Assembly (NCBI GenBank): GCA_020852255.1
Contig: JADZBD010000009.1
Location: forward strand, 62,001-126,000
Direction: 5' to 3'
Source of the DNA: Bacteroidia bacterium
GTDB taxonomy: Bacteria; Bacteroidota; Bacteroidia; JADZBD01
Length of the DNA stretch: 64,000 nucleotides
Shown here: positions 21,761 through 32,082 of the stretch, one piece after another
How the letters are laid out: every line of letters starts with the position of its first letter
Numbering within the stretch: position 1 is the stretch's first letter
The notes under the pieces: generated by a model
Seen by the model: the letters and a program-made list of their open reading frames with translations, nothing else
What the model was told of the DNA's origin: nothing
Databases searched by the model: none
Position numbers and translations under genes: made by a program

Positions 21761-22060
21761 TTATAGTTGCCTTTGCTTCTCTTTGTGCCTTTTGGTTTGC
21801 GCTTTCAACGCAGAAACCGCCTGGTCCACTGCCTCCTCAAAGGTCTTGCATTGTCGCTTGGCGAAAAGATCATTCCCGGGAATACTGAGCCGGATCTCCG
21901 CTATTTTATTATCCGAAGTGCTTGATTTATCGAGCTTTAGAGTAATGTCAGCACTTATAATCTGATCGTAAAAGGTATCCAGCTTTTTCACCTTTTCCTC
22001 AATAAATGCAGTGAGTTTTCGGTCTGCATCGAAGTGTACACTCTGAATGTTGATATTCAT
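21761..22060 (-). CDS. hpf: Ribosome hibernation-promoting factor, short form (HPF/RaiA family)
   Basis: A 99-residue protein with the beta-alpha fold of the HPF/YfiA family (MNINIQSVHFDADRKLTAFI, KKLDTFYDQIISADITLKLD, IRLSIPGNDLFAKRQCKTFEEAVDQA). It binds the decoding region of the 30S subunit and stabilises inactive ribosomes under stress. The length indicates the short form without the C-terminal dimerisation domain. It is 25 nt downstream of the XerC-like gene and precedes the tRNA-tuf operon, a position I recall as frequent in this phylum. Confidence 0.95.
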   Translation of the reverse strand: MNINIQSVHFDADRKLTAFIEEKVKKLDTFYDQIISADITLKLDKSSTSDNKIAEIRLSIPGNDLFAKRQCKTFEEAVDQAVSALKAQTKRHKEKQRQL

Positions 22061-22085
22061 AGGTTTTTGATTAAATTATTGATAT

Positions 22086-22982
22086 TCAAGATCTTGGATG
22101 ACTCTTTCGGTAAATCTCCTTTAATTCTGAAATTGAATTATGTGTATATATCTGTGTTGAAGTAAGGTTAGCATGGCCCAGCAGTTCTTTTATGGCATTC
22201 AAATCGGCGCCCCTGTTGAGCAAATGGGTTGCAAAGGTATGCCTGAGAACATGGGGGCTTTTCTTAGAGAGGGTCGTGGATTCTGCAAGATATTGATTCA
22301 CAATACTGTATATTGCTCTAGGATTCAGTTTATTTCCCTTCTCGCTGATAAATACCGAAGCGGGAGACAGGTTCGTTATCTTTTCTGCCCTGTGTTCAAG
22401 ATAACTCTGCAGTGTTTTCACCAGCGATTCATGCAGTGGTACCAAACGCTCCTTCGATCGTTTTCCCATCACTTTTGCCACACGCCGGCGGAGATCAATA
22501 TCCTTCAATTTTAAGTCAATCAGTTCTGCTCTTCGTACACCTGTGGCATAGAAGAATTCTAACACAGCCCGATCGCGCCATCCTTTAAAATCGTTGGTGA
22601 ACCGAAGTGAGGAGAGCAATTTATCCATTTGCTCTTCGGCCACAAACTCCGGAAGCCTTTTTGCGGCTTTTGGTCCCTGCACCTTTTTCATAGGATCATG
22701 AAGGAGCCGGCCCTCTCTTTTTAGAAAGCGATAATAGGTCCGAAGCGCACTTAATTTCCGGTTGACAGATCTCGCATTGATGCCCTGATCCATTAAAAAA
22801 ACAATCCACGATCGTACTTGCAGGTGATTCAATTCCGCAAGGTTTTCTGTCATGTAGGTCGTCTGTGTAAAGTCGCGAAATTGAAGCAGATCGTCCAGAT
22901 AGGCCTTTACGGTTAGGACTGAACTTCGCTTTTCATTTTTCAGATAGCTCGCGAAAGAATCGAATATACCGGCCACTATCAT
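22086..22982 (-). CDS. xerC: Tyrosine recombinase, XerC/XerD type
   Basis: A 298-residue site-specific recombinase. The N-terminal SAM-like DNA-binding domain (about 5-95) and catalytic domain are complete, with catalytic residues visible: Arg150 (TGVRRAEL), Lys174, His244 and Arg247 (HVLRHTF), His270 (LLGHANL) and nucleophile Tyr279 (STQIYTH). Length and order fit the chromosomal XerC/XerD family that resolves chromosome dimers. Whether it is the XerC or XerD partner cannot be told from this alone. No integrase-type att sites or mobile genes flank it, so it is read as housekeeping. It leads hpf by 25 nt. Confidence 0.9.
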   Translation of the reverse strand: MIVAGIFDSFASYLKNEKRSSVLTVKAYLDDLLQFRDFTQTTYMTENLAELNHLQVRSWIVFLMDQGINARSVNRKLSALRTYYRFLKREGRLLHDPMKKVQGPKAAKRLPEFVAEEQMDKLLSSLRFTNDFKGWRDRAVLEFFYATGVRRAELIDLKLKDIDLRRRVAKVMGKRSKERLVPLHESLVKTLQSYLEHRAEKITNLSPASVFISEKGNKLNPRAIYSIVNQYLAESTTLSKKSPHVLRHTFATHLLNRGADLNAIKELLGHANLTSTQIYTHNSISELKEIYRKSHPRS

Positions 22983-23010
22983 AGATTACACTCCTGCATT
23001 CATCTACGCA

Positions 23011-23041
23011 ACAAGGTAAGGAAAGTTACTTCTTTATCAAA
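23011..23041 (-). promoter_or_regulatory. Promoter of xerC-hpf
   Basis: Minus-strand TTTG (23038-23041), a 19-nt spacer and TACCTTGT (23011-23018), one mismatch from TAnnTTTG. It lies 28 nt before the xerC start codon. Confidence 0.5.
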
Positions 23042-23061
23042 TATTAACAGGCTGAGAATGA

Positions 23062-24180
23062 TCAGTTGTAATCGGTGATCACATTATATAATGTGTCTCT
23101 CTCCACAGGCTCCCTGCCAGCCTGCTTTACCAGCGCGATCAATTCTTCTGTAGACATGGAAGGTGTCTGCTCTTCGGATCCTGCCATGGTATATATTCGG
23201 GTTGTGTCGTCGATAGTACCATCAATGTCATCCACCCCAAACGAGAGGGAAAGCTGAGTGCTTTGGCGTCCTATCATTGGCCAGTACGACTTAACATGTT
23301 GAAAATTATCCAGATAGACTCGTGACACGGCATAATTCTTCATATCCTCTACTATGCTAACCTCCTCTACCTGCCTCATCTGATTGTCTTTGTTACGGAA
23401 TTTGAGTGGGATGAAGGTATTAAACCCTCGTGTTTTATCCTGCAGATCGCGGAGTCGTTTTAAATGATCTATTCTATGAGAATAACTTTCAATATGCCCA
23501 TAGAGGATGGTGGCATTAGACGGAATACCCAGCCGATGTGCTGTTTCATGAATTCCCAGCCAGGTTTCACTGCTGCATTTATCACCGGAAATTTTTTCCC
23601 TGATCCCGGCATCAAAAATTTCCGCTCCTCCGCCCGGAAGTGAATCCAGTCCGGCTTCCTTTAACACAGAGAGTCCCTCTTCTGTTGTTTTTCCGGATTT
23701 ACGGAACATATACTCAAGCTCAACGGCTGTAAATGCCTTTATATGCAGCCCGGGGCGGTGTTTGCGAATCCGACGAAGAAGATCCGCAAAAAAATTCAGA
23801 TCCATCTTCGGATGTACCCCTCCTACAATGTGCACTTCCGTAACCGGCTGTCCATCGTATTTGTGCACGATCTCCATCATCTCGTCTGCAGACATTTCCC
23901 ACTGTCCATCCTTTTGCTTGAGTAAACGTGAGTAGGAGCAAAACTTGCAGTCAAAAACACAAATGTTAGTAGGTTCGATATGAAAATTTCTGTTGAAATA
24001 GGTTTTATCCCCATTCTTCTTCTTACGAATAATGGTGGCCAGCATTCCGAGATAAGATAACTCTGCTTTTTCATAAAGCAGCAAGGCCTCTTCATCAGAG
24101 ATCCGTTCTCCTTTCTCCACTTTTTCTGCTATCGCATTCCAGGGCGGAGTCAGTCGAGACTTCATTAACTGCTGTTCCAT
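23062..24180 (-). CDS. mqnE: Aminofutalosine synthase MqnE
   Basis: A 372-residue radical SAM enzyme with the CX3CX2C cluster motif at Cys74, Cys78 and Cys81 (CVFDCKFC). MqnE joins 3-enolpyruvyl-benzoate to SAM to give aminofutalosine, an early step of the futalosine route to menaquinone. Further family marks are VHIVGGVHPKMD, LPGGGAEIF and FIPLKFRNKDNQM. MqnC is the nearest alternative; the GGGAEIF region and overall length favour MqnE. A TAACTTTG promoter box ends 4 nt before the ATG. No other mqn gene is in the window. Confidence 0.92.
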   Translation of the reverse strand: MEQQLMKSRLTPPWNAIAEKVEKGERISDEEALLLYEKAELSYLGMLATIIRKKKNGDKTYFNRNFHIEPTNICVFDCKFCSYSRLLKQKDGQWEMSADEMMEIVHKYDGQPVTEVHIVGGVHPKMDLNFFADLLRRIRKHRPGLHIKAFTAVELEYMFRKSGKTTEEGLSVLKEAGLDSLPGGGAEIFDAGIREKISGDKCSSETWLGIHETAHRLGIPSNATILYGHIESYSHRIDHLKRLRDLQDKTRGFNTFIPLKFRNKDNQMRQVEEVSIVEDMKNYAVSRVYLDNFQHVKSYWPMIGRQSTQLSLSFGVDDIDGTIDDTTRIYTMAGSEEQTPSMSTEELIALVKQAGREPVERDTLYNVITDYN

Positions 24181-24184
24181 ACGG

Positions 24185-24192
24185 CAAAGTTA
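24185..24192 (-). promoter_or_regulatory. mqnE -7 box, near-leaderless
   Basis: TAACTTTG on the minus strand fits TAnnTTTG exactly and ends 4 nt before the mqnE ATG. The position expected for the -33 element falls on the T-run of the M43 gene terminator, with no TTTG. Confidence 0.6.
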
Positions 24193-24212
24193 GGCATTCG
24201 TTACGGGGAAAT

Positions 24213-24237
24213 AAAAAAGGGGGGCAAAAAGCCCCCC
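24213..24237 (-). terminator. Terminator of the M43 peptidase gene
   Basis: A perfect 7-bp stem GGGGGGC/GCCCCCC (24219-24225, 24231-24237) with a 5-nt loop, followed on the minus strand by TTTTTT (24213-24218). It lies 24 nt past the stop codon. Confidence 0.9.
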
Positions 24238-24260
24238 TCCTGATTCTCTATTCATATCGG

Positions 24261-25535
24261 TTACTGACCAGACACCACCAGGCGTTTGGTGATTTGTCCT
24301 GTGCCATTATCCAACTGAAGGAAATAAATACCTTCTGAAACACCGCGAATATCTACTTTAATCTCCGGACCATTTGTATGGTGGAATGATTTAATAAGAT
24401 TTCCGAGTGCATCGAATACTTTGACCTCACAATCGTTCAGATCGTACGCGGGTGAAGCTACGATGAATTGACCTGCACTCGGGTTAGGAATCAGGTTCAC
24501 GGCAAAGGCCGTATACTCATCCACACCAGCGCTGGTAGGCGTACAACCATTCGATGTTTGTAAACTCACACGCGTTCCGTTCATGATCGCAGTCACGCGA
24601 CTCTTCTGACCTGTGGTAAACATGTACATACATGCATCGTCTGTATAGTCCATGTAGTTCATCCACATAATGCCGGGAGAAGTGGTAGTGCAGGCATCCG
24701 TAACAACCTGCGACGGGCTGAAACAACCAAACTGATAGTTCGCAGCGTTCGGGGTATCGCTTACCTGATCTGATCCGCTGCAAGCACCGTTATCATCTCC
24801 CCAGATATGATACAAATTCAGCCAGTGACCCACCTCATGCGTGGCAGTACGCCCTTTGTTGAAAGGAGGCGACGCGCCAGTAGTTCCTGTGTACTGGTAA
24901 TCTATCACTACTCCGTCTGTGGCGGCTGGTCCTCCGGGAAATTGAGCATATCCTAACAATCCGCCGCTCAAATCACACACCCAGACATTCAGGTATTTGT
25001 TTCTATCCCAAATATCCTTCCCTCCATTGGCGGTGTACTTCACTGCATTGTTTGTGGAAAAGGAGGTAACAGTGGTTTGAGTATAAGTGATGCCGGTCGT
25101 TGATGCTCCTGTCGGCGTCCGCTGGGCTAAACAAAACTGGACCTCACAATCCGCCACCAACCCCTGCCACACGGAAGGTGTCAGGTTCCAGTCGGTGTTC
25201 AGTTTCCGGTAATCAGCGTTCAAAACGGCGAGCTGATCGTTGAGACGGCTAACATTAAGCGATTCTGCGGTGGTATTCCACACCACATGAAAAACCGTTG
25301 GGATCGTCACCACGGCTGTCAGGGAATTATCAGGATTTGTACGGAAATAGGAAACATAATCCTGGATATTTCTTTCAATTTCCTCGCGAACCTGTTTGAT
25401 GGTTGGATCCTGTTGTTCAAGCATAGCCTGATGCTCCATTGTTCCACAGGAGCGATGCTGCGGCGTAAAGTCCTCCTGTGCATTCAATGCACAAAAAGAG
25501 AGGGCGGCAGCCATGGTTAGTAAAGGTCTCTTCAT
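24261..25535 (-). CDS. Secreted M43 family zinc metallopeptidase with T9SS sorting domain
   Basis: A 424-residue pappalysin-type (MEROPS M43) peptidase. Signal peptide about 1-20 (ending LNAQ). The catalytic motif HEVGHWLNLYH places zinc ligands at His233, His237 and His243 with Glu234 as base. The Met-turn region (WMNYMDYTDDACMYMFT) follows. A type A T9SS C-terminal sorting domain covers about residues 345-424 (LIPNPSAGQF, then GIYFLQLDNG and RLVVSG). It is therefore likely exported by Sec and T9SS and attached or released at the surface. The substrate is unknown. It has its own promoter and terminator. Confidence 0.95.
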   Translation of the reverse strand: MKRPLLTMAAALSFCALNAQEDFTPQHRSCGTMEHQAMLEQQDPTIKQVREEIERNIQDYVSYFRTNPDNSLTAVVTIPTVFHVVWNTTAESLNVSRLNDQLAVLNADYRKLNTDWNLTPSVWQGLVADCEVQFCLAQRTPTGASTTGITYTQTTVTSFSTNNAVKYTANGGKDIWDRNKYLNVWVCDLSGGLLGYAQFPGGPAATDGVVIDYQYTGTTGASPPFNKGRTATHEVGHWLNLYHIWGDDNGACSGSDQVSDTPNAANYQFGCFSPSQVVTDACTTTSPGIMWMNYMDYTDDACMYMFTTGQKSRVTAIMNGTRVSLQTSNGCTPTSAGVDEYTAFAVNLIPNPSAGQFIVASPAYDLNDCEVKVFDALGNLIKSFHHTNGPEIKVDIRGVSEGIYFLQLDNGTGQITKRLVVSGQ

Positions 25536-25564
25536 TGGGTTAGTTTTTGGTTGGTTATGGTTTA

Positions 25565-25595
25565 CGAATATAATTCAGTTCCGATTGAAATGCAA
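25565..25595 (-). promoter_or_regulatory. Promoter of the M43 peptidase gene
   Basis: Minus-strand TTG (25593-25595), a 20-nt spacer and TATATTCG (25565-25572), one mismatch from TAnnTTTG. It lies 29 nt before the ATG. Confidence 0.5.
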
Positions 25596-25634
25596 CTTAA
25601 ATTTTCAGAAGTGTAGAATTTCAGTATGTTCCTC

Positions 25635-25661
25635 ATGCGGAATGAGACTAACATACCGCAT
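25635..25661. repeat. Inverted repeat in the M43/GH16 divergent gap
   Basis: ATGCGG (25635-25640) and CCGCAT (25656-25661) form a 6-bp inverted repeat with a 15-nt loop in the 211-bp gap between the divergent M43 and GH16-like genes. It might be an operator, but no regulator is known and a chance origin is possible. Confidence 0.25.
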
Positions 25662-25746
25662 TGAATATCAAAGAAATACTAAATTTACCGCGCTATGCAG
25701 AGAAATTCTCCGGTTGGCGTAGCGATATTAGTATAGCGTACTCTAA

Positions 25747-26481
25747 ATGGCAAATCAAAGTTTATTATTTGTACAGGTCATCAGGACAGTTTTTATCGGT
25801 CTGACTGCGATGCTTCTCGGTTCCTTTTACCTTCCCCCTTATAACCGAACGATTGATTTCTCCGGGATGCAGTGGCAGGTGAAGCATCATTCCAAGCCAG
25901 AGGGTCCGGGGCCGAATTATTTCTCGGATCATGATTCTTCTGTGTGGGTGGATGCCTCAGGAAGATTGCATCTCCGGCTGAGGTATTCCGATGGGCGGTG
26001 GTGGTGTGCAGAGGTGATTGGCATGCAACCGGTGGGTACCGGGATCCTGAAATTTGCAGTAGAAGGTTTGCCGGAGAACTGGGATCCGCAATGTGTACTG
26101 GGTTTATTCACCTGGTCAACTGAAAAAATAAAGCACCACGGAGAAATCGATATTGAATACTCGTTATGGGGCAAAAAGAAAAACAAATGGAATCTCCAGT
26201 TTGTTGTGCAGCCTCATAAAAAAAAGCAAAACAAATTTCGTTTTACAACCAGCATCCATCAGCCCAAAACACATGAAATTATCATATCAGGAAAAGCAGT
26301 TGCGTTCTCTACTTCGGGTGTGAATGAAGAAGAAAAAAGATTTGTAGTTCGCAAAAAATGGTATCCGGAGAAAAAGATTTTTCCCCGGATTAATTTATGG
26401 CTTTACCAGGGGATAGCACCGGAGAAGGGTGAGTCGGTAGAAGTGATCATAACCTCTTTTAAATTCCTACCTTCGTTCTGA
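25747..26481 (+). CDS. GH16-like (concanavalin-fold) protein
   Basis: A 244-residue protein with an N-terminal hydrophobic segment (about residues 8-28, signal or anchor). The segments SVWVDASGRLHLRL, GRWWCAEV, VLGLFTW and HGEIDIEYSLWG match short GH16-like proteins. The pattern EIDIE (Glu133, Asp135, Glu137) is the GH16 catalytic triad arrangement, so glycosidase or transglycosylase activity on a beta-glucan-type polymer is possible, though small GH16-like proteins are rarely tested. It is the first gene of a three-gene operon; its TGA stop overlaps the next ATG by one base. No clear TAnnTTTG box was found upstream. Confidence 0.75.
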   Translation: MANQSLLFVQVIRTVFIGLTAMLLGSFYLPPYNRTIDFSGMQWQVKHHSKPEGPGPNYFSDHDSSVWVDASGRLHLRLRYSDGRWWCAEVIGMQPVGTGILKFAVEGLPENWDPQCVLGLFTWSTEKIKHHGEIDIEYSLWGKKKNKWNLQFVVQPHKKKQNKFRFTTSIHQPKTHEIIISGKAVAFSTSGVNEEEKRFVVRKKWYPEKKIFPRINLWLYQGIAPEKGESVEVIITSFKFLPSF

Positions 26482-27698
26482 TGTGGAAAAGAAGGTTAAT
26501 CATCACCGTGTTCTTTCTGGCTTTACTCACTCCGCTCTGGATGTACCTTGCCTGGTTGCTGCGGCCCCCGCATCCAATGAACATCTTTATTCTGGACAAA
26601 ACAGTACTCACAAAAAGCTGCGACGAGCACCGATCGCTGAACTGGGTACTTACAAATGAGAAGATTGTCCGGCCGGACACCCAACTATACGTTACGGAAA
26701 GTGACTACTCGGGATTCTTTCCCCTGGAATATGATCAGTATGAGGTACGTGATATCGAAAAACTAAGCGCTCAGCAGGTAGACAGCATGGCAAATGTGCT
26801 GGACATGGTTTACTACACGGATATTTACGGGATTTACTGGAATGACTGGTACCAGGAAGGAATGCCGGTTTCGGAGGATGAGCGCATCCTGAATCTTTTT
26901 AAAAATCTGTTCGGAAAAAAAGCAGCACTGGAACGCTCTCCGTTGATTTATGGAGGCCTTCACGCGAATGAAGTTGAGCTACTCCGGGAAATGAAAGAAA
27001 GGAAAAAACTGATTCTTACCGAATTCAATCTGCTGGCCTCCCCATCCAACGGACCAAACCGGAAAAAGGTGGAACAATTATTCGGTTTTACCTGGAGCGG
27101 CTGGGTGGGAAGATATTTTATTTCACTCGATACCCTTGTGAACCCGGAGATTCCACCCTGGGTTGTGCGCCTCTATAAGGAGCAACATCAAAATACCTGG
27201 CCCTTTCACAAATCCGGCATTGTACTTGTTCATGAGGACGAAACGATTGCGATTCTGGAAGACGAGACTCATCTGGAGGCCGATGTTCCCGCCATTGTTA
27301 CAACCGATCAATATCAGGATGAATACGGCCTGCCCTACAGGGTGATCTACCCATTCTGGTTTGACGTGATCAACACCGGTGACTCCAACGCGGTTATCTC
27401 CTGGTATGAACTGAGTCCGAACAAAAAGGGAGATTCCATCCTGAATAAAAATCACATACCATCGCTGTTTCCTGCTGTTATTAAGCGAAAATCGGGATTT
27501 CCTTTCTGGTATATGGCTGGCGACTTTTCCGACAATCCCATCCGTATCAATTATATGTCCCGTCTGCGGGGGATTAAGACGTTTCGGTATTTTATGTACG
27601 ACAAAGGAGACAAGAGCGACCGGAACCGGTTTTTCTGGAATTATTATTCCATACTGGTACCGCGAATCATAAGGGATTATCAAAATGAAATGAAATGA
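26481..27698 (+). CDS. Unknown membrane-anchored protein (405 aa)
   Basis: I do not recognise this family with certainty. One transmembrane segment (about residues 7-27) is followed by a soluble domain that should face the periplasm. The region around KKLILTEFNLLASPSNG and LFGFTWSGWVGRYF resembles the part of GATase-like/ThuA-like folds where a statement about open access or release sits, but this is a weak impression. The C-terminal half is rich in aromatic residues (for example IYPFWFDVI, FPFWYMAGDFSDN, NRFFWNYYSILVP). It starts in a TGATG overlap with the GH16-like gene and ends in an ATGA overlap with the TPR lipoprotein gene, so the three are almost certainly co-translated and probably work together on an envelope glycan. 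Confidence 0.7.
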   Translation: MWKRRLIITVFFLALLTPLWMYLAWLLRPPHPMNIFILDKTVLTKSCDEHRSLNWVLTNEKIVRPDTQLYVTESDYSGFFPLEYDQYEVRDIEKLSAQQVDSMANVLDMVYYTDIYGIYWNDWYQEGMPVSEDERILNLFKNLFGKKAALERSPLIYGGLHANEVELLREMKERKKLILTEFNLLASPSNGPNRKKVEQLFGFTWSGWVGRYFISLDTLVNPEIPPWVVRLYKEQHQNTWPFHKSGIVLVHEDETIAILEDETHLEADVPAIVTTDQYQDEYGLPYRVIYPFWFDVINTGDSNAVISWYELSPNKKGDSILNKNHIPSLFPAVIKRKSGFPFWYMAGDFSDNPIRINYMSRLRGIKTFRYFMYDKGDKSDRNRFFWNYYSILVPRIIRDYQNEMK

Positions 27699-28405
27699 GG
27701 AAGTTCCAGGTCATTTTGCATTCCTTTGCGGCAATACTGCTACTGGTCGGCTGCCAAAGCCCTATTTCGGAATATTACCAGGCTGTGAATGACACCAAGG
27801 AGGGGGATTTCCGGAAAGCTGAATTCTTCTTTGAATCCTATGTAACGGAGCGGCCCGGATTTGACTCTGCATGGTTTTATCTGGGCTATTGCAAGCAAAA
27901 AGGGGGGGATCTTCGCGGTGCTGTCAAATGTTACGATGAAGTAACAAGGCTGAATCCAACCTATTATGAGGTGTATAACACCCGAGGTATTTGCAAGGGT
28001 ATGCTGGGAGATCCGGACGGGGAACTGCGTGAATATGACCGGTGTATCGAACTTGCGCCTGACTTTCACCGCCCCTACTATAACCGGGGAAATCTCAAGT
28101 ACGATCGCGGAGATTTACCCGGCGCCCTCAGTGATTATTCCCGTGCCATCGAACTCTACCCTGGATATTCCAAAGCCCATTTCAACCGGGCCAGTGTTCT
28201 GGATGATCTCCGGCGATATGACGAAGCGCTCCGGGATTATTATGCGGCTGTAAAAGATTCGTCCATCGCCGGAGAGACCTTTTACCAGATTGCTATGGAT
28301 CAGCTGATTCTGGGCGATACGGTTCTGGCTTGCCGCGCACTGGACAGCGCGCTTACGCACGGATATTTCAAAGCAGGTTCTGAATTAAACCTTTATTGCA
28401 AATAA
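27695..28405 (+). CDS. TPR-repeat lipoprotein
   Basis: A 236-residue lipoprotein with signal peptide and lipobox LLLVGC (Cys at about residue 20), followed by about six tetratricopeptide repeats. Clear units are FDSAWFYLGYCKQKGGDLRG, RPYYNRGNLKYDRGDLPGAL and KAHFNRASVLDDLRRYDEAL. TPR proteins act as interaction scaffolds. Its ATG overlaps the previous stop (ATGA), linking it to the GH16-like and 405-residue proteins as a likely periplasmic or outer-membrane assembly partner (inference). Confidence 0.85.
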   Translation: MRKFQVILHSFAAILLLVGCQSPISEYYQAVNDTKEGDFRKAEFFFESYVTERPGFDSAWFYLGYCKQKGGDLRGAVKCYDEVTRLNPTYYEVYNTRGICKGMLGDPDGELREYDRCIELAPDFHRPYYNRGNLKYDRGDLPGALSDYSRAIELYPGYSKAHFNRASVLDDLRRYDEALRDYYAAVKDSSIAGETFYQIAMDQLILGDTVLACRALDSALTHGYFKAGSELNLYCK

Positions 28406-28462
28406 TACCGTTCGAATTCTGATTTATTCCTAATTTCATTCCCGAAATAAAACACAATAGTT

Positions 28463-28834
28463 ATGTTCAATGTTAACGGAACCATCAAAGAAGTATTTTC
28501 TGAACAGCAGGTAAACGACCGGTTTAAGAAAAGAGAATTCGTACTCACAGTAAATACTTCCCAATACCCTCAGTATGTCCTGTTTCAGCTTACACAGGAT
28601 AAATGCAGTCTGATTGATCCCTTTCAGCCGGGAGAAGAGATAAAAGTACATTTCAACCTGCGGGGCAGGGAATGGAAAGACAGGGAAGGAAAGATCCGTT
28701 ATTTTAATTCCCTTGAAGCCTGGAAGCTTGAGAAAGCAGGAACAGTAAGCAATACTCCCACTCCTTCATCGCATTCGGAACCGGTTCCGGAAAGTTTCAG
28801 TAATAAAGGGACTGACGACGATTTGCCCTTCTAA
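28463..28834 (+). CDS. DUF3127 protein with SSB-like acidic C-terminal tip
   Basis: A 123-residue protein. The N-terminal about 90 residues match DUF3127 (FNVNGTIKEVF, FKKREFVLTV, PQYVLFQLTQDKC, VHFNLRGREWKD, YFNSLEAWKLE), with an OB-fold-like strand pattern. A proline/serine-rich linker leads to the terminal DDDLPF, almost identical to the tail by which single-stranded DNA-binding protein recruits repair and replication factors. This supports a nucleic-acid-related role, but it is inference. The stop overlaps the end of the convergent permease gene by 4 bp. Confidence 0.88.
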   Translation: MFNVNGTIKEVFSEQQVNDRFKKREFVLTVNTSQYPQYVLFQLTQDKCSLIDPFQPGEEIKVHFNLRGREWKDREGKIRYFNSLEAWKLEKAGTVSNTPTPSSHSEPVPESFSNKGTDDDLPF

Positions 28835-30081
28835 TATCCCATCACCTGATCTTCGTCGATCGCTTTTGCATCAAGCGCATCCCTCAGGCCGTTTCCAACG
28901 AGCATAAACGCCAGTACAAGGATCATGATCGCGAGGCCCGGAACTATTGCGAGGTAGGAGGAATCTGTAAAAAGATACTGGCGGTGATCATTGATCATGG
29001 CTCCCCATGATGCCGTAGGCGGTTGTGCACCAATACCCAGAAAACTCAGTCCCGCTTCAATCAGGATAGCATTCGCGAAATTTGCCGCACAGATTACGAT
29101 CACTGGTCCCATGACGTTGGGCATGATATGCCGGATAATAATCCTGAAATCTGTAAATCCCAGCGCACGTCCGGCTTCAACAAACTCCTTTTCTCTCAGA
29201 CTCAGCGTTTGTCCTCTGACCACTCTTGCCACATCTACCCACATGGTAAGGCCCACGGCTATAAAAACTTGTCCTAGTCCCTTTCCCAGCGCAAGTGTGA
29301 TAGCTATTACCAGCAGGAGGGTGGGAATACTCCAGACCACGTTAATAACCCACATTATGAAATCATCCACCCAGCCTCTGAAGAAACCAGAGATGGCGCC
29401 TAGCAGGATACCGATAAAAAGTGAAATGACTACCGACACCACACCCACCGAGAGTGACACCCTGGTACCCAGCAGTAAACGCGTAAGCATATCGCGGCCA
29501 AGTTGATCTGTGCCGAGCCAATAGGTGCGGTCTACGATAAAATCCTCTTCGATCCGGGTATATAATTCTTCTCTGGAAATAGTAATAAGTTCGGTATTAT
29601 CCTTTTCGTGTATCCGGAATTTCCCGGCAGAGGAATCTACCTCCTGCTTTTGATTCTCATCCAGCGCAAAAACCACATCTGCTATGTCATGAGGGACCTC
29701 CTGCCTTGAGATCACCCCTTCGCCCATGTAAGGTTTTACATAGATAAAGTTTCCGTCAAAGCGGTAATCGATAATGGGATGATGATCGTACATATTCTGA
29801 CGACCATTCCATGCTTTAGAGATCCAGCTTCGGTCATCTTCTTCTATATTCTTACGAACGAGGAGAAACCTGGCGGTGTAGCCAGGTGGTTTTTCACGCA
29901 ACTCTGAAACCACAATGCTTCCGTTTGGGGTAGAATCCGGTGTAATGTTCGGACCGAGCAGTGATATAAGTACACATAATCCGATAGTAACCATCCCGAA
30001 CACTGCAAGACGATTCCTCTTCATGCGTTGCCACGCATGATAACTGAGTGATTTAGAGAACTGCTCCTTATTCACTTTCAT
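28831..30081 (-). CDS. ABC transporter permease, OppC/DppC type
   Basis: A 416-residue inner-membrane permease of the peptide/nickel class. TM1 lies at about residues 23-42. The family signatures DQLGRDMLTRLLLGTRVSL, then AGRALGFTDFRIIIRHIMPN (the EAA loop that contacts the ATPase) and GLSFLGIGAQPPTASWGAMI are all present. OppC is normally about 300 residues; here a periplasmic insert of about 120 residues separates TM1 and TM2. No ATPase, partner permease or binding protein lies nearby. It is the last gene of the flippase-GT2-permease operon and overlaps GT2 by ATGA. Confidence 0.9.
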   Translation of the reverse strand: MKVNKEQFSKSLSYHAWQRMKRNRLAVFGMVTIGLCVLISLLGPNITPDSTPNGSIVVSELREKPPGYTARFLLVRKNIEEDDRSWISKAWNGRQNMYDHHPIIDYRFDGNFIYVKPYMGEGVISRQEVPHDIADVVFALDENQKQEVDSSAGKFRIHEKDNTELITISREELYTRIEEDFIVDRTYWLGTDQLGRDMLTRLLLGTRVSLSVGVVSVVISLFIGILLGAISGFFRGWVDDFIMWVINVVWSIPTLLLVIAITLALGKGLGQVFIAVGLTMWVDVARVVRGQTLSLREKEFVEAGRALGFTDFRIIIRHIMPNVMGPVIVICAANFANAILIEAGLSFLGIGAQPPTASWGAMINDHRQYLFTDSSYLAIVPGLAIMILVLAFMLVGNGLRDALDAKAIDEDQVMGY

Positions 30082-31118
30082 CTACCGTCGACCACTACCC
30101 TGCCCTTCCATTGTAACTCGGGTTTGTTGATCAAACCTGCAAGCAATCTTGACTGAACCCAAACCGACATTAAAAATGCCGGAACTGACCATATCAGCAT
30201 TGCCATTCGCCGGAAGCGGATAGAGGGTAAAAGTACTAACAAAAAGTCAATGAACCATCTGATAAACAGGGGGATAAAATAGACCCATTCCCAATATCCA
30301 AGTGCCCCGAATACCAGTGGCATCAGAAAGAGCATCACTTTAACAATCGTATCCACAACAAAAAGGCTCAGCGCATTTTGGTCGGAAAAAGAGTGCATTT
30401 TGGAGAGCCATCGCAGGCGTTGGGCGAAGAACTGATTTTGGCTCAGTGCGGGAAAGGTCAGCACCGTGGCCTCTCTGGCCCCGGCATGTAACACAGCCCC
30501 GGGGGATCCGGCCATTTTCCGCATCAGGAACATATCATCACCTGAACTGATTTTTTCATTTCCTTCATAACCATTGACTTCGAAAAAGCAGGACTTACGA
30601 AAAGCGAGTGAAGCACCCGTACAAAGACGCGGATTTCCCCATCCGCATGAGAATGCACTTATGGTATAAAAAGCGAAATGCTCCAGCTCCTGATAAGCCG
30701 CCAATAATCCTCCGGCACCTATCATTCGCACATTCCCTACAATCATTTTTACTGAATGATTAGAAAATCCAGCCGTCATTTCCGAGATCCAGGCACCGGA
30801 AGGTCTGCAATCAGCATCTGTAGTAAGAACGATCCCTCCGGTTGCCTTACTGATACCGAATGTTAGTGCAGCCTTTTTACCCTGAAGGTCCTCCGGAAGC
30901 GGAAACACGGATATGTTCATGCGAGGGAACAACCGGACCATTTCCTTTACCGCTTCCAGCTCCAATTCAGAATTATGATCACTGATCAGTAGAAGTTCCC
31001 AATCAGAAAAAGAAATGCTCTGCTTCGATAAACAAGTAATCAGTTCTCCCATTTCCGGCTCATTACGAAAGGGCACGATGACGCTGTATTTAACCATGCT
31101 GATGTCAGGCCGGTTCAT
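30078..31118 (-). CDS. Glycosyltransferase family 2 protein
   Basis: A 346-residue GT2. The start of the catalytic domain (MVKYSVIVPFRNE), the DxD-type motif (TTDADCRP) and the acceptor-side GDDMFLMRKM and QRLRW motif (QxxRW, typical of processive or membrane GT2) are visible. Two or three transmembrane segments follow at about residues 250-325. Either ATG31118 or ATG31097 could be the start; the latter fits the family N-terminus better, while the former overlaps the flippase gene by 14 nt. It probably transfers a sugar to an envelope lipid or polysaccharide, in keeping with the adjacent flippase-like protein. Confidence 0.9.
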   Translation of the reverse strand: MNRPDISMVKYSVIVPFRNEPEMGELITCLSKQSISFSDWELLLISDHNSELELEAVKEMVRLFPRMNISVFPLPEDLQGKKAALTFGISKATGGIVLTTDADCRPSGAWISEMTAGFSNHSVKMIVGNVRMIGAGGLLAAYQELEHFAFYTISAFSCGWGNPRLCTGASLAFRKSCFFEVNGYEGNEKISSGDDMFLMRKMAGSPGAVLHAGAREATVLTFPALSQNQFFAQRLRWLSKMHSFSDQNALSLFVVDTIVKVMLFLMPLVFGALGYWEWVYFIPLFIRWFIDFLLVLLPSIRFRRMAMLIWSVPAFLMSVWVQSRLLAGLINKPELQWKGRVVVDGR

Positions 31119-32082
31119 TCTTCTTGAACATAAGAGCCGCTCCGGAAAGTGCAGGAATTGCCAGGTTAAAACACCAAATCATCAGTGATGCAAAAAGAAC
31201 CGCTTCTGCATCGGCGCATACCGGGCTAAGGAAAAGAACCGCGGATGCTCCCCGAATGGATATGTCCAGCGGAAAGACGAGCAATCCGGGAATCACAGAG
31301 GTAACAAAAAATACCATTGGTATCAGGATCCACCCGGTCCAGTCCGCATCTACGATCCCAAACCAGCGCAGTATCAGCCAATACTGCACCAGAAAAACCA
31401 GGTACCGGAGAACCGAAAGACCCGTGACTTTCATCACTGTGAATGCCCCAACCTGGTGAACCGTTTTCAGTAATGACGAAAACTTCTCACCCCAACGGCT
31501 CACGAACTTACCTGCGCTGACAACATACATAATAACTGCGGAAAAGAGTAGGAAAACGAATGCATACATCAGCATATCACCGACAGGAAGTAACACTTCG
31601 TCCACCATCTGAATAATTCCTGAAAAATGCCAGCGGTAAACCACCCAGGCGATACCTGCCGCACTTACCGTGGTGAGCAACTGTGTAAGGGAATTAATCA
31701 CCGATAGCATAATTCCCCGGGGGCGCAGGGGTGGGTGTATATCCATGATTCTGCCCAGGAACTCTCCCACTCTGTTTGGTGTAAGGATTCCAACCGCCAA
31801 ACCTTTTAACACGGCAGTAAGGGCGGTACTGAAAGAAACCGAGAGACCGATTCGGTGCAGGAGCACCCTCCACTTTACAGCTTCCAGTAACCAGTTGACA
31901 GGAATGAGCAATATAAAAACTCCAAAATATACTGCGGCATCCGGGAACATGAACGCCCTGTGGAACATGTCAAAGGAAAATGGCTGGTCCGAAAAAAAAA
32001 CCCGATAGATAATATACCCGGTGGAAAGGAATAAAATAATGCCTTTCAATAAAAGTCCAGTAACTTTAGCGGTAATGGCCAC
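31105..32082 (-). CDS. Flippase-like / lysylphosphatidylglycerol synthase TM-domain protein
   Basis: An integral membrane protein of about 326 residues with roughly eight hydrophobic helices, of the LPG_synthase_TM/UPF0104 class (motifs LLEAVKWRVLL and the NRVGEFLGR loop are typical). Members are implicated in lipid or glycolipid translocation, and here a co-transcribed GT2 supports glycolipid handling. The frame is open further upstream to 32199, but that stretch is antisense to ruvC codons. GTG at 32082 is preferred because a TACTTTTG box ends 3 nt before it. The start overlaps the ruvC start by 8 bp. Confidence 0.75.
   Translation of the reverse strand: MAITAKVTGLLLKGIILFLSTGYIIYRVFFSDQPFSFDMFHRAFMFPDAAVYFGVFILLIPVNWLLEAVKWRVLLHRIGLSVSFSTALTAVLKGLAVGILTPNRVGEFLGRIMDIHPPLRPRGIMLSVINSLTQLLTTVSAAGIAWVVYRWHFSGIIQMVDEVLLPVGDMLMYAFVFLLFSAVIMYVVSAGKFVSRWGEKFSSLLKTVHQVGAFTVMKVTGLSVLRYLVFLVQYWLILRWFGIVDADWTGWILIPMVFFVTSVIPGLLVFPLDISIRGASAVLFLSPVCADAEAVLFASLMIWCFNLAIPALSGAALMFKKNEPA
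32061..32068 (+). promoter_or_regulatory. ruvC -7 box, near-leaderless
   Basis: TAACTTTA (one mismatch from TAnnTTTG) ends 6 nt before the ruvC ATG at 32075 and lies inside flippase codons. No -33 TTTG at the expected distance. Confidence 0.4.

Follow-up and report, generated by a model that had tools for sequence, protein, structure and literature searches.

A probable detached accessory module of a synthase-dependent exopolysaccharide system in the Bacteroidota, encoding a membrane-anchored GATase1-like protein

Compared with those of the Proteobacteria, the exopolysaccharide machines of the Bacteroidota are poorly known. Among systems described elsewhere, the TPR part of PgaA binds the polymer and modulates a polymer-processing partner (PMC9384988); synthase operons commonly include a hydrolase gene (PMC7710045); and the Pel loci of Gram positive bacteria offer a precedent for a polysaccharide locus accompanied by a CotH-like gene (PMC7112168). 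The fungal enzyme Agd3 deacetylates an exopolysaccharide; its N-terminal domain is most similar to the structures 3RHT and 4JQS and defines the family CBM87. According to PMC7229062, this alpha/beta/alpha domain is GATase1-like, has no Cys-His-Glu triad, carries conserved aromatic residues there and binds its polymer, and GATase1 active sites follow core strands.

The locus considered here lies within a 64,000 nt stretch of a Bacteroidia genome (the window; contig JADZBD010000009.1, positions 62,001 to 126,000), the assembly of which totals 3.28 Mb in 28 contigs and is 99.8% complete. Three open reading frames run together on the forward strand. The first encodes a GH16-type glycoside hydrolase (25747..26481, 244 aa), predicted from its profile and hydrophobic N terminus to be exported; the second encodes a 405 aa product, here named MID (26481..27698), which its relatives and structural model mark as a membrane-anchored GATase1-like protein, probably of an exopolysaccharide system; and the third encodes a TPR lipoprotein (27695..28405, 236 aa) with several repeats (TPR_1, E 2.4e-24). 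The initial annotation had described three overlapping genes with envelope-directed products, and both observations stand: the first and second genes share 1 bp and the second and third 4 bp, whilst all three N termini are hydrophobic (best 19-residue mean hydropathies of 2.1, 2.2 and 1.9 respectively) and the last product also has an LVGC lipobox ending at Cys20 (27743..27754, forward strand), found as a pattern in the translation. A promoter scan of the trio found five sites, against 5.3 expected by shuffling, and terminator-like sites were all within genes or on the opposite strand, with none at the end of the trio. A DUF3127 protein is encoded on the same strand from 58 bp past the trio (28463-28834) and may share its transcript; divergent from the trio is the gene for an M43-type metalloprotease with a T9SS sorting tail (24261-25535, reverse strand).

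MID was the product to which the initial annotation could give no family name. Searches of Pfam, NCBIfam (to E 1) and PDB sequences likewise returned no match beyond chance, the best PDB match (E 0.8) being discarded as chance level. The profile search that had been proposed for the 405-residue protein recovered no known family, yet genome contigs, when scanned, yielded 213 relatives, the best 80 of which were kept for the analysis of loci. An alignment of 55 sequences was picked by hand from these loci, leaving out fragments and near-duplicates, and its profile also matched nothing beyond chance among PDB sequences, the top match, a botulinum neurotoxin chain at E 0.93, being disregarded too. 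Going by record titles, most carriers within the best 80 of the 213 belong to the Bacteroidota, the others being a few Ignavibacteria and one Candidatus Electryonea, and MID was present in five of the 99 genomes of the relatives set, the window's own included. Profile comparison gave no sequence link between MID and the GATases of its own genome (0.1%, no usable alignment), nor between MID and GH16, and a search of 119 Bacteroidia genomes for the GATase1_like family PF07090 gave no match. Judged by its sequences, MID is a widespread family, unnamed in Pfam and NCBIfam.

The surroundings of MID were compared across 82 loci, comprising the window, one further locus (L005) and the best 80 of the 213 relatives. 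YaiO homologues are present in 61 of these and homologues of the family 2 glycosyltransferase (GT2) of the window's own genome in 50, with both in 49 and either in 62; HEAT-repeat homologues are found in 43, response regulators in 39 and CotH in five. The YaiO gene is directly upstream of MID on the same strand in 47 of the 82, with a median gap of 1 bp and every pair either overlapping or at most 12 bp apart. Neither GT2 nor YaiO was found in the stretches of 20 loci, the window's included, some of which are short contigs. In the type locus (L021), a YaiO barrel protein with TPR repeats at its N terminus is followed by MID, and the other strand encodes an LtaS-like sulfatase-fold protein, GT2, a HEAT-repeat protein and a response regulator. 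The GT2 of this locus scores best in NCBIfam against the PgaC/IcaA and XrtG-associated synthases, followed by a group that includes NodC and CelA. In L033 (11281-14868) the GT2 and the LtaS-like protein are fused into one 1195 aa polypeptide, as they are in other loci too, which suggests a transferase that decorates the polymer with phospho groups.

The initial annotation had envisaged the three genes as a fixed set, forming a small machine that binds or remodels a glycan. The same trio was not found at other MID loci: when co-occurrence was checked in the stretches around the best 80 of the 213 relatives, a GH16 homologue was detected in five loci and the TPR lipoprotein in none beyond two weak TPR matches, its representatives otherwise being itself and a cut copy in L008. 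With its lipobox and TPR repeats, this lipoprotein might be comparable with AlgK-like scaffolds. A conserved machine composed of the trio was ruled out on these counts, and a fixed machine of its own is unsupported; the unit that is conserved consists of MID with GT2, YaiO, the HEAT-repeat protein and the response regulator.

The window's genome has a single YaiO gene and a single close GT2, both of which are on contig C3, the trio being on C9. They belong to a core locus of five closely packed genes in one direction (L097:9040-14669, or G000:C3:19040-24669), encoding a response regulator (L097:9040-9414), a YaiO barrel with N-terminal TPR (L097:9423-10736; YaiO domain E 4.1e-48), a CotH-like protein (L097:10736-12070), a HEAT-repeat protein (L097:12070-13224) and GT2 (L097:13221-14669; Pfam Glycos_transf_2 E 2.4e-23), the last being 62% identical to the GT2 of the type locus. 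This GT2 contains the sequence QRNRW, which we take to be an instance of the QxxRW motif with its customary meaning. The locus appears to encode both a processive family 2 glycosyltransferase and a TPR-containing outer-membrane export barrel. An orthologue of the LtaS-like partner was sought in the same genome, with only distant matches found (25-27% identity). The trio on C9 supplies the MID that the core locus on C3 lacks.

Amongst 247 Bacteroidia genomes, MID was detected in 14, one of which (G236) has only pieces with stops, GT2 in 30 (E at most 1e-60) and YaiO in 29. All 13 genomes with an intact MID, spanning 11 genera, carry both GT2 and YaiO (Fisher p of 8e-14 and 5e-14 respectively, ignoring relatedness and scoring G236 as MID-less), and in 11 of the 13 MID and a YaiO gene are on one contig, no more than 10 kb apart. 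G236, where the remnant lies at C6:91528-91906, has no match to GT2 or YaiO, and its MID seems to have decayed once the system was lost. Seventeen of the 30 GT2 genomes have no MID. Fifteen core stretches from 14 of these genomes contained GT2 in every case, a HEAT homologue in 14 and a YaiO homologue in 14, with no convincing MID (best profile E 0.21); as these stretches show the core alone, MID is accessory to the system, being neither core nor essential.

The AlphaFold2 model of MID built from the 55-row alignment has a mean pLDDT of 92.6 and a pTM of 0.90, superseding an earlier model from five sequences (pLDDT 65.9). Residues 2-27 form an N-terminal membrane helix (26484..26561, forward strand), agreeing with a TM-like N terminus in 54 of the 55 aligned rows, and none of the rows has a second such stretch; residues from about 32 to 404 form a GATase1-like alpha/beta domain (26574..27692, forward strand). 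The VIA-align matches were 3soz_A (Z 14.2, rmsd 3.1, 205 aligned), a GH42-type beta-galactosidase domain (Z 14.1), 3rht_A (Z 13.8), Agd3 (6nwz_A; Z 13.2, rmsd 4.0, 205 aligned, residues 146-363, 10% identity) and a chain of the human oligosaccharyltransferase OST-B (Z 12.9), amongst which differences in Z of less than 1 are ties; many GATase1-like folds score alike, and a common fold shows no function. Foldseek retrieved GATase1-like and ThuA-like proteins along with one GH42 enzyme (E about 2e-4 to 3e-3), and a viral structure library gave a single match below 0.001, a phage protein, which was taken to reflect the common fold. Ten residues are invariant in all 55 rows (D39, H50, D75, D114, E181, N183, W205, W208, W227 and W293), and D348 is nearly so. 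The motif E181-F-N183 (27021..27029, forward strand; F182 in 54 of the 55 rows) is at the end of the core strand 177-181, and from the order of motifs, with GG at 158-159 preceding a helix and this strand, E181 would sit where true GATases carry Cys. The Cys-His-Glu triad of class I glutamine amidotransferases is absent: the one Cys of the window's MID (47) is outside the conserved columns, and a glutamine amidotransferase was ruled out as no Cys is conserved in the 55 rows.

The GH16 fold that the initial annotation assigned to the first gene was borne out. An ExDxE motif, E133-I-D135-I-E137 (26143..26157, forward strand), is invariant in all eight aligned relatives, and its three acidic residues presumably have the nucleophile and acid-base roles familiar from GH16. 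A profile of these eight matches 1,3-1,4-beta-glucanases in the PDB over the catalytic half (E 4.9e-9). The window's protein alone had no GH16 match in Pfam; its homologues at MID loci (L011, L015, L020, L031 and L042, from the best 80 of the 213) were also scanned, and four matched PF00722, only L011 passing the cut-off, with none for L042. The homologue in L015 is directly 3' of GT2, inside the core operon. GH16 was found in 17 of the 247 Bacteroidia genomes, some of them without the core: four of the 13 with an intact MID, against 13 of the other 234 (Fisher p 0.008, two of the four being one genus). The same subfamily seems to serve degradation as well, and its relatives elsewhere adjoin GH3 enzymes, along with proteins that match CBM11 or CBM30 below threshold. 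A cluster of this type, with GH16, GH3 and weakly CBM11/CBM30-like genes, recurs in other Bacteroidia (L123:2965-10102 and L125:8755-14071; the L123 proteins and one L121 GH3 were scanned) and is likely to be a beta-glucan degradation set. Taken as a whole, the evidence on GH16 gives no more than a hint of a beta-glucan-like substrate. In two further loci (L118:8521-9390 and L119:8960-9856), GH16 relatives lie between tyrosine-recombinase-like and carboxylase-like genes, named by eye, and a carboxylase-like gene similar to the latter is near YaiO-MID in L021 and L042. Of the machine proposed by the initial annotation, the glycan role is thus the part that gained support, given the GT2 and YaiO of all intact-MID genomes and the intact GH16 motif.

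With the Agd3 domain as precedent, glycan binding is our first choice for the role of MID by analogy, and 3RHT and 4JQS, the structures nearest to that domain, are also structurally near MID. Alternatively, MID could be a periplasmic enzyme that modifies the polymer, for example through hydrolysis, lysis or group transfer, in which invariant acidic residues, at the C termini of core strands, stand in for the Cys nucleophile. The conservation of D39, H50, D75, D114, E181, N183 and, nearly, D348 is consistent with this, as is the position of several of these behind strands of the modelled core, which is where PMC7229062 locates the active sites of GATase1 proteins. However, sequence searches gave no relative of solved structure, and no enzyme known to combine this fold with such a centre was found; the many conserved tryptophans would also fit plain glycan binding, and the Agd3 domain is a binding module without such chemistry. 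We consider an enzyme rather unlikely, and we are similarly hesitant about a broader proposal: that MID proteins, anchored in the membrane and facing the periplasm, are a new family of enzymes or chaperones whose GATase1 fold has exchanged the Cys triad for an invariant acidic centre (D39, D114, E181, N183, D348), with which they would act on the growing polymer of an undescribed, Bacteroidota-wide synthase-dependent machine of GT2, HEAT, YaiO and response regulator.

The association of GH16 relatives with GH3 and weakly CBM11/CBM30-like genes in other genomes, together with the lack of linkage between trio and core in its own, could indicate that the trio no longer belongs to the exopolysaccharide system but degrades glycans, GH16 being the principal enzyme whilst MID and the lipoprotein act as binding partners. 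This is improbable: no SusC/SusD, GH3 or CBM gene was recognised by eye amongst the open reading frames of 22000-32000 in the window, five of which were scanned; intact MID is confined to core-bearing genomes; and GH16 is itself enriched with MID, albeit with half of the four cases from one genus. Little credence can be given either to a chance neighbourhood of three envelope genes co-transcribed by happenstance. This would account for a lipoprotein with no more than two weak TPR matches in other loci and for GH16 in just five of 80 stretches (both from the best 80 of the 213), but the start/stop overlaps of 1 and 4 bp argue against it, as does GH16 lying near MID in five other loci, once inside the core operon.

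Given the neighbours of MID in other loci, its co-occurrence with GT2 and YaiO, and a core of response regulator, YaiO, CotH, HEAT and GT2 on another contig of the window's genome, we think it probable that these three genes form a detached accessory module of a synthase-dependent exopolysaccharide system of the Bacteroidota. Set against this are the fact that MID does not adjoin the core in this genome and the occurrence of GH16 relatives in degradation-like clusters, beside GH3 and possible CBM genes, as well as the 20 loci with neither GT2 nor YaiO, the MID remnant in G236 and the 17 GT2 genomes without MID. In such a system GT2 would polymerise the polysaccharide, which may be beta-glucan-like, and push the chain through the inner membrane, where MID would be held by its one helix with the GATase1-like domain in the periplasm. 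Most likely, MID handles the glycan in the periplasm on its way from synthase to export barrel: its domain would bind, and possibly modify, the nascent chain before passing it to the TPR repeats of YaiO, a hand-over modelled on the PgaA TPR (PMC9384988). Trimming or clearance of polymer would fall to the GH16 enzyme, and the TPR lipoprotein may act as a local scaffold. A family unnamed in Pfam and NCBIfam is now tied to a recurring gene set with the marks of a secretion machine, and as its carriers include the cultivable genera Pedobacter, Gillisia, Zunongwangia and Niabella, both role and polymer are directly testable.

By title or abstract, no description of a GT2/YaiO/HEAT/MID gene set was found in the open-licence literature. 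The 1,3-1,4-beta-glucanases, or lichenases, resemble the window's GH16 protein in the profile match and the intact ExDxE motif; however, even with its own relatives the latter shares only about a third of its residues, and the Pfam GH16 model misses it. MID shares with the N-terminal domain of Agd3 (CBM87) a GATase1-like fold, the loss of the triad, conserved aromatic residues and a tie to exopolysaccharide, but it is bacterial, membrane-anchored and without a deacetylase domain. The clostridial ccsZABHI cellulose locus has a hydrolase (ccsZ) within the synthase operon (PMC7710045), and the Gram positive Pel locus has a CotH-like accessory gene (PMC7112168); both differ in having other synthases, no outer membrane and no MID. 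As regards Pga, which makes PNAG, the GT2 of the type locus scores 138.4 bits, far under the PgaC/IcaA equivalog cut-off of 422.3, and no PgaB-type polysaccharide deacetylase was seen amongst the five core-locus proteins of the window's genome and the three window proteins scanned. Synthase-dependent systems as a class (Pga, cellulose, alginate and Pel; PMC9384988, PMC7710045) have in common with this one a synthase and a TPR-bearing outer-membrane protein; they often include a glycoside hydrolase, for which the GH16 enzyme is the candidate here. The YaiO-type barrel, the HEAT-repeat protein, the receiver-only response regulator, the LtaS-like or CotH-like partners and MID set this system apart. 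It is probably an exopolysaccharide machine, ordinary in kind, and is new in its parts, namely an unnamed family and a repurposed fold.
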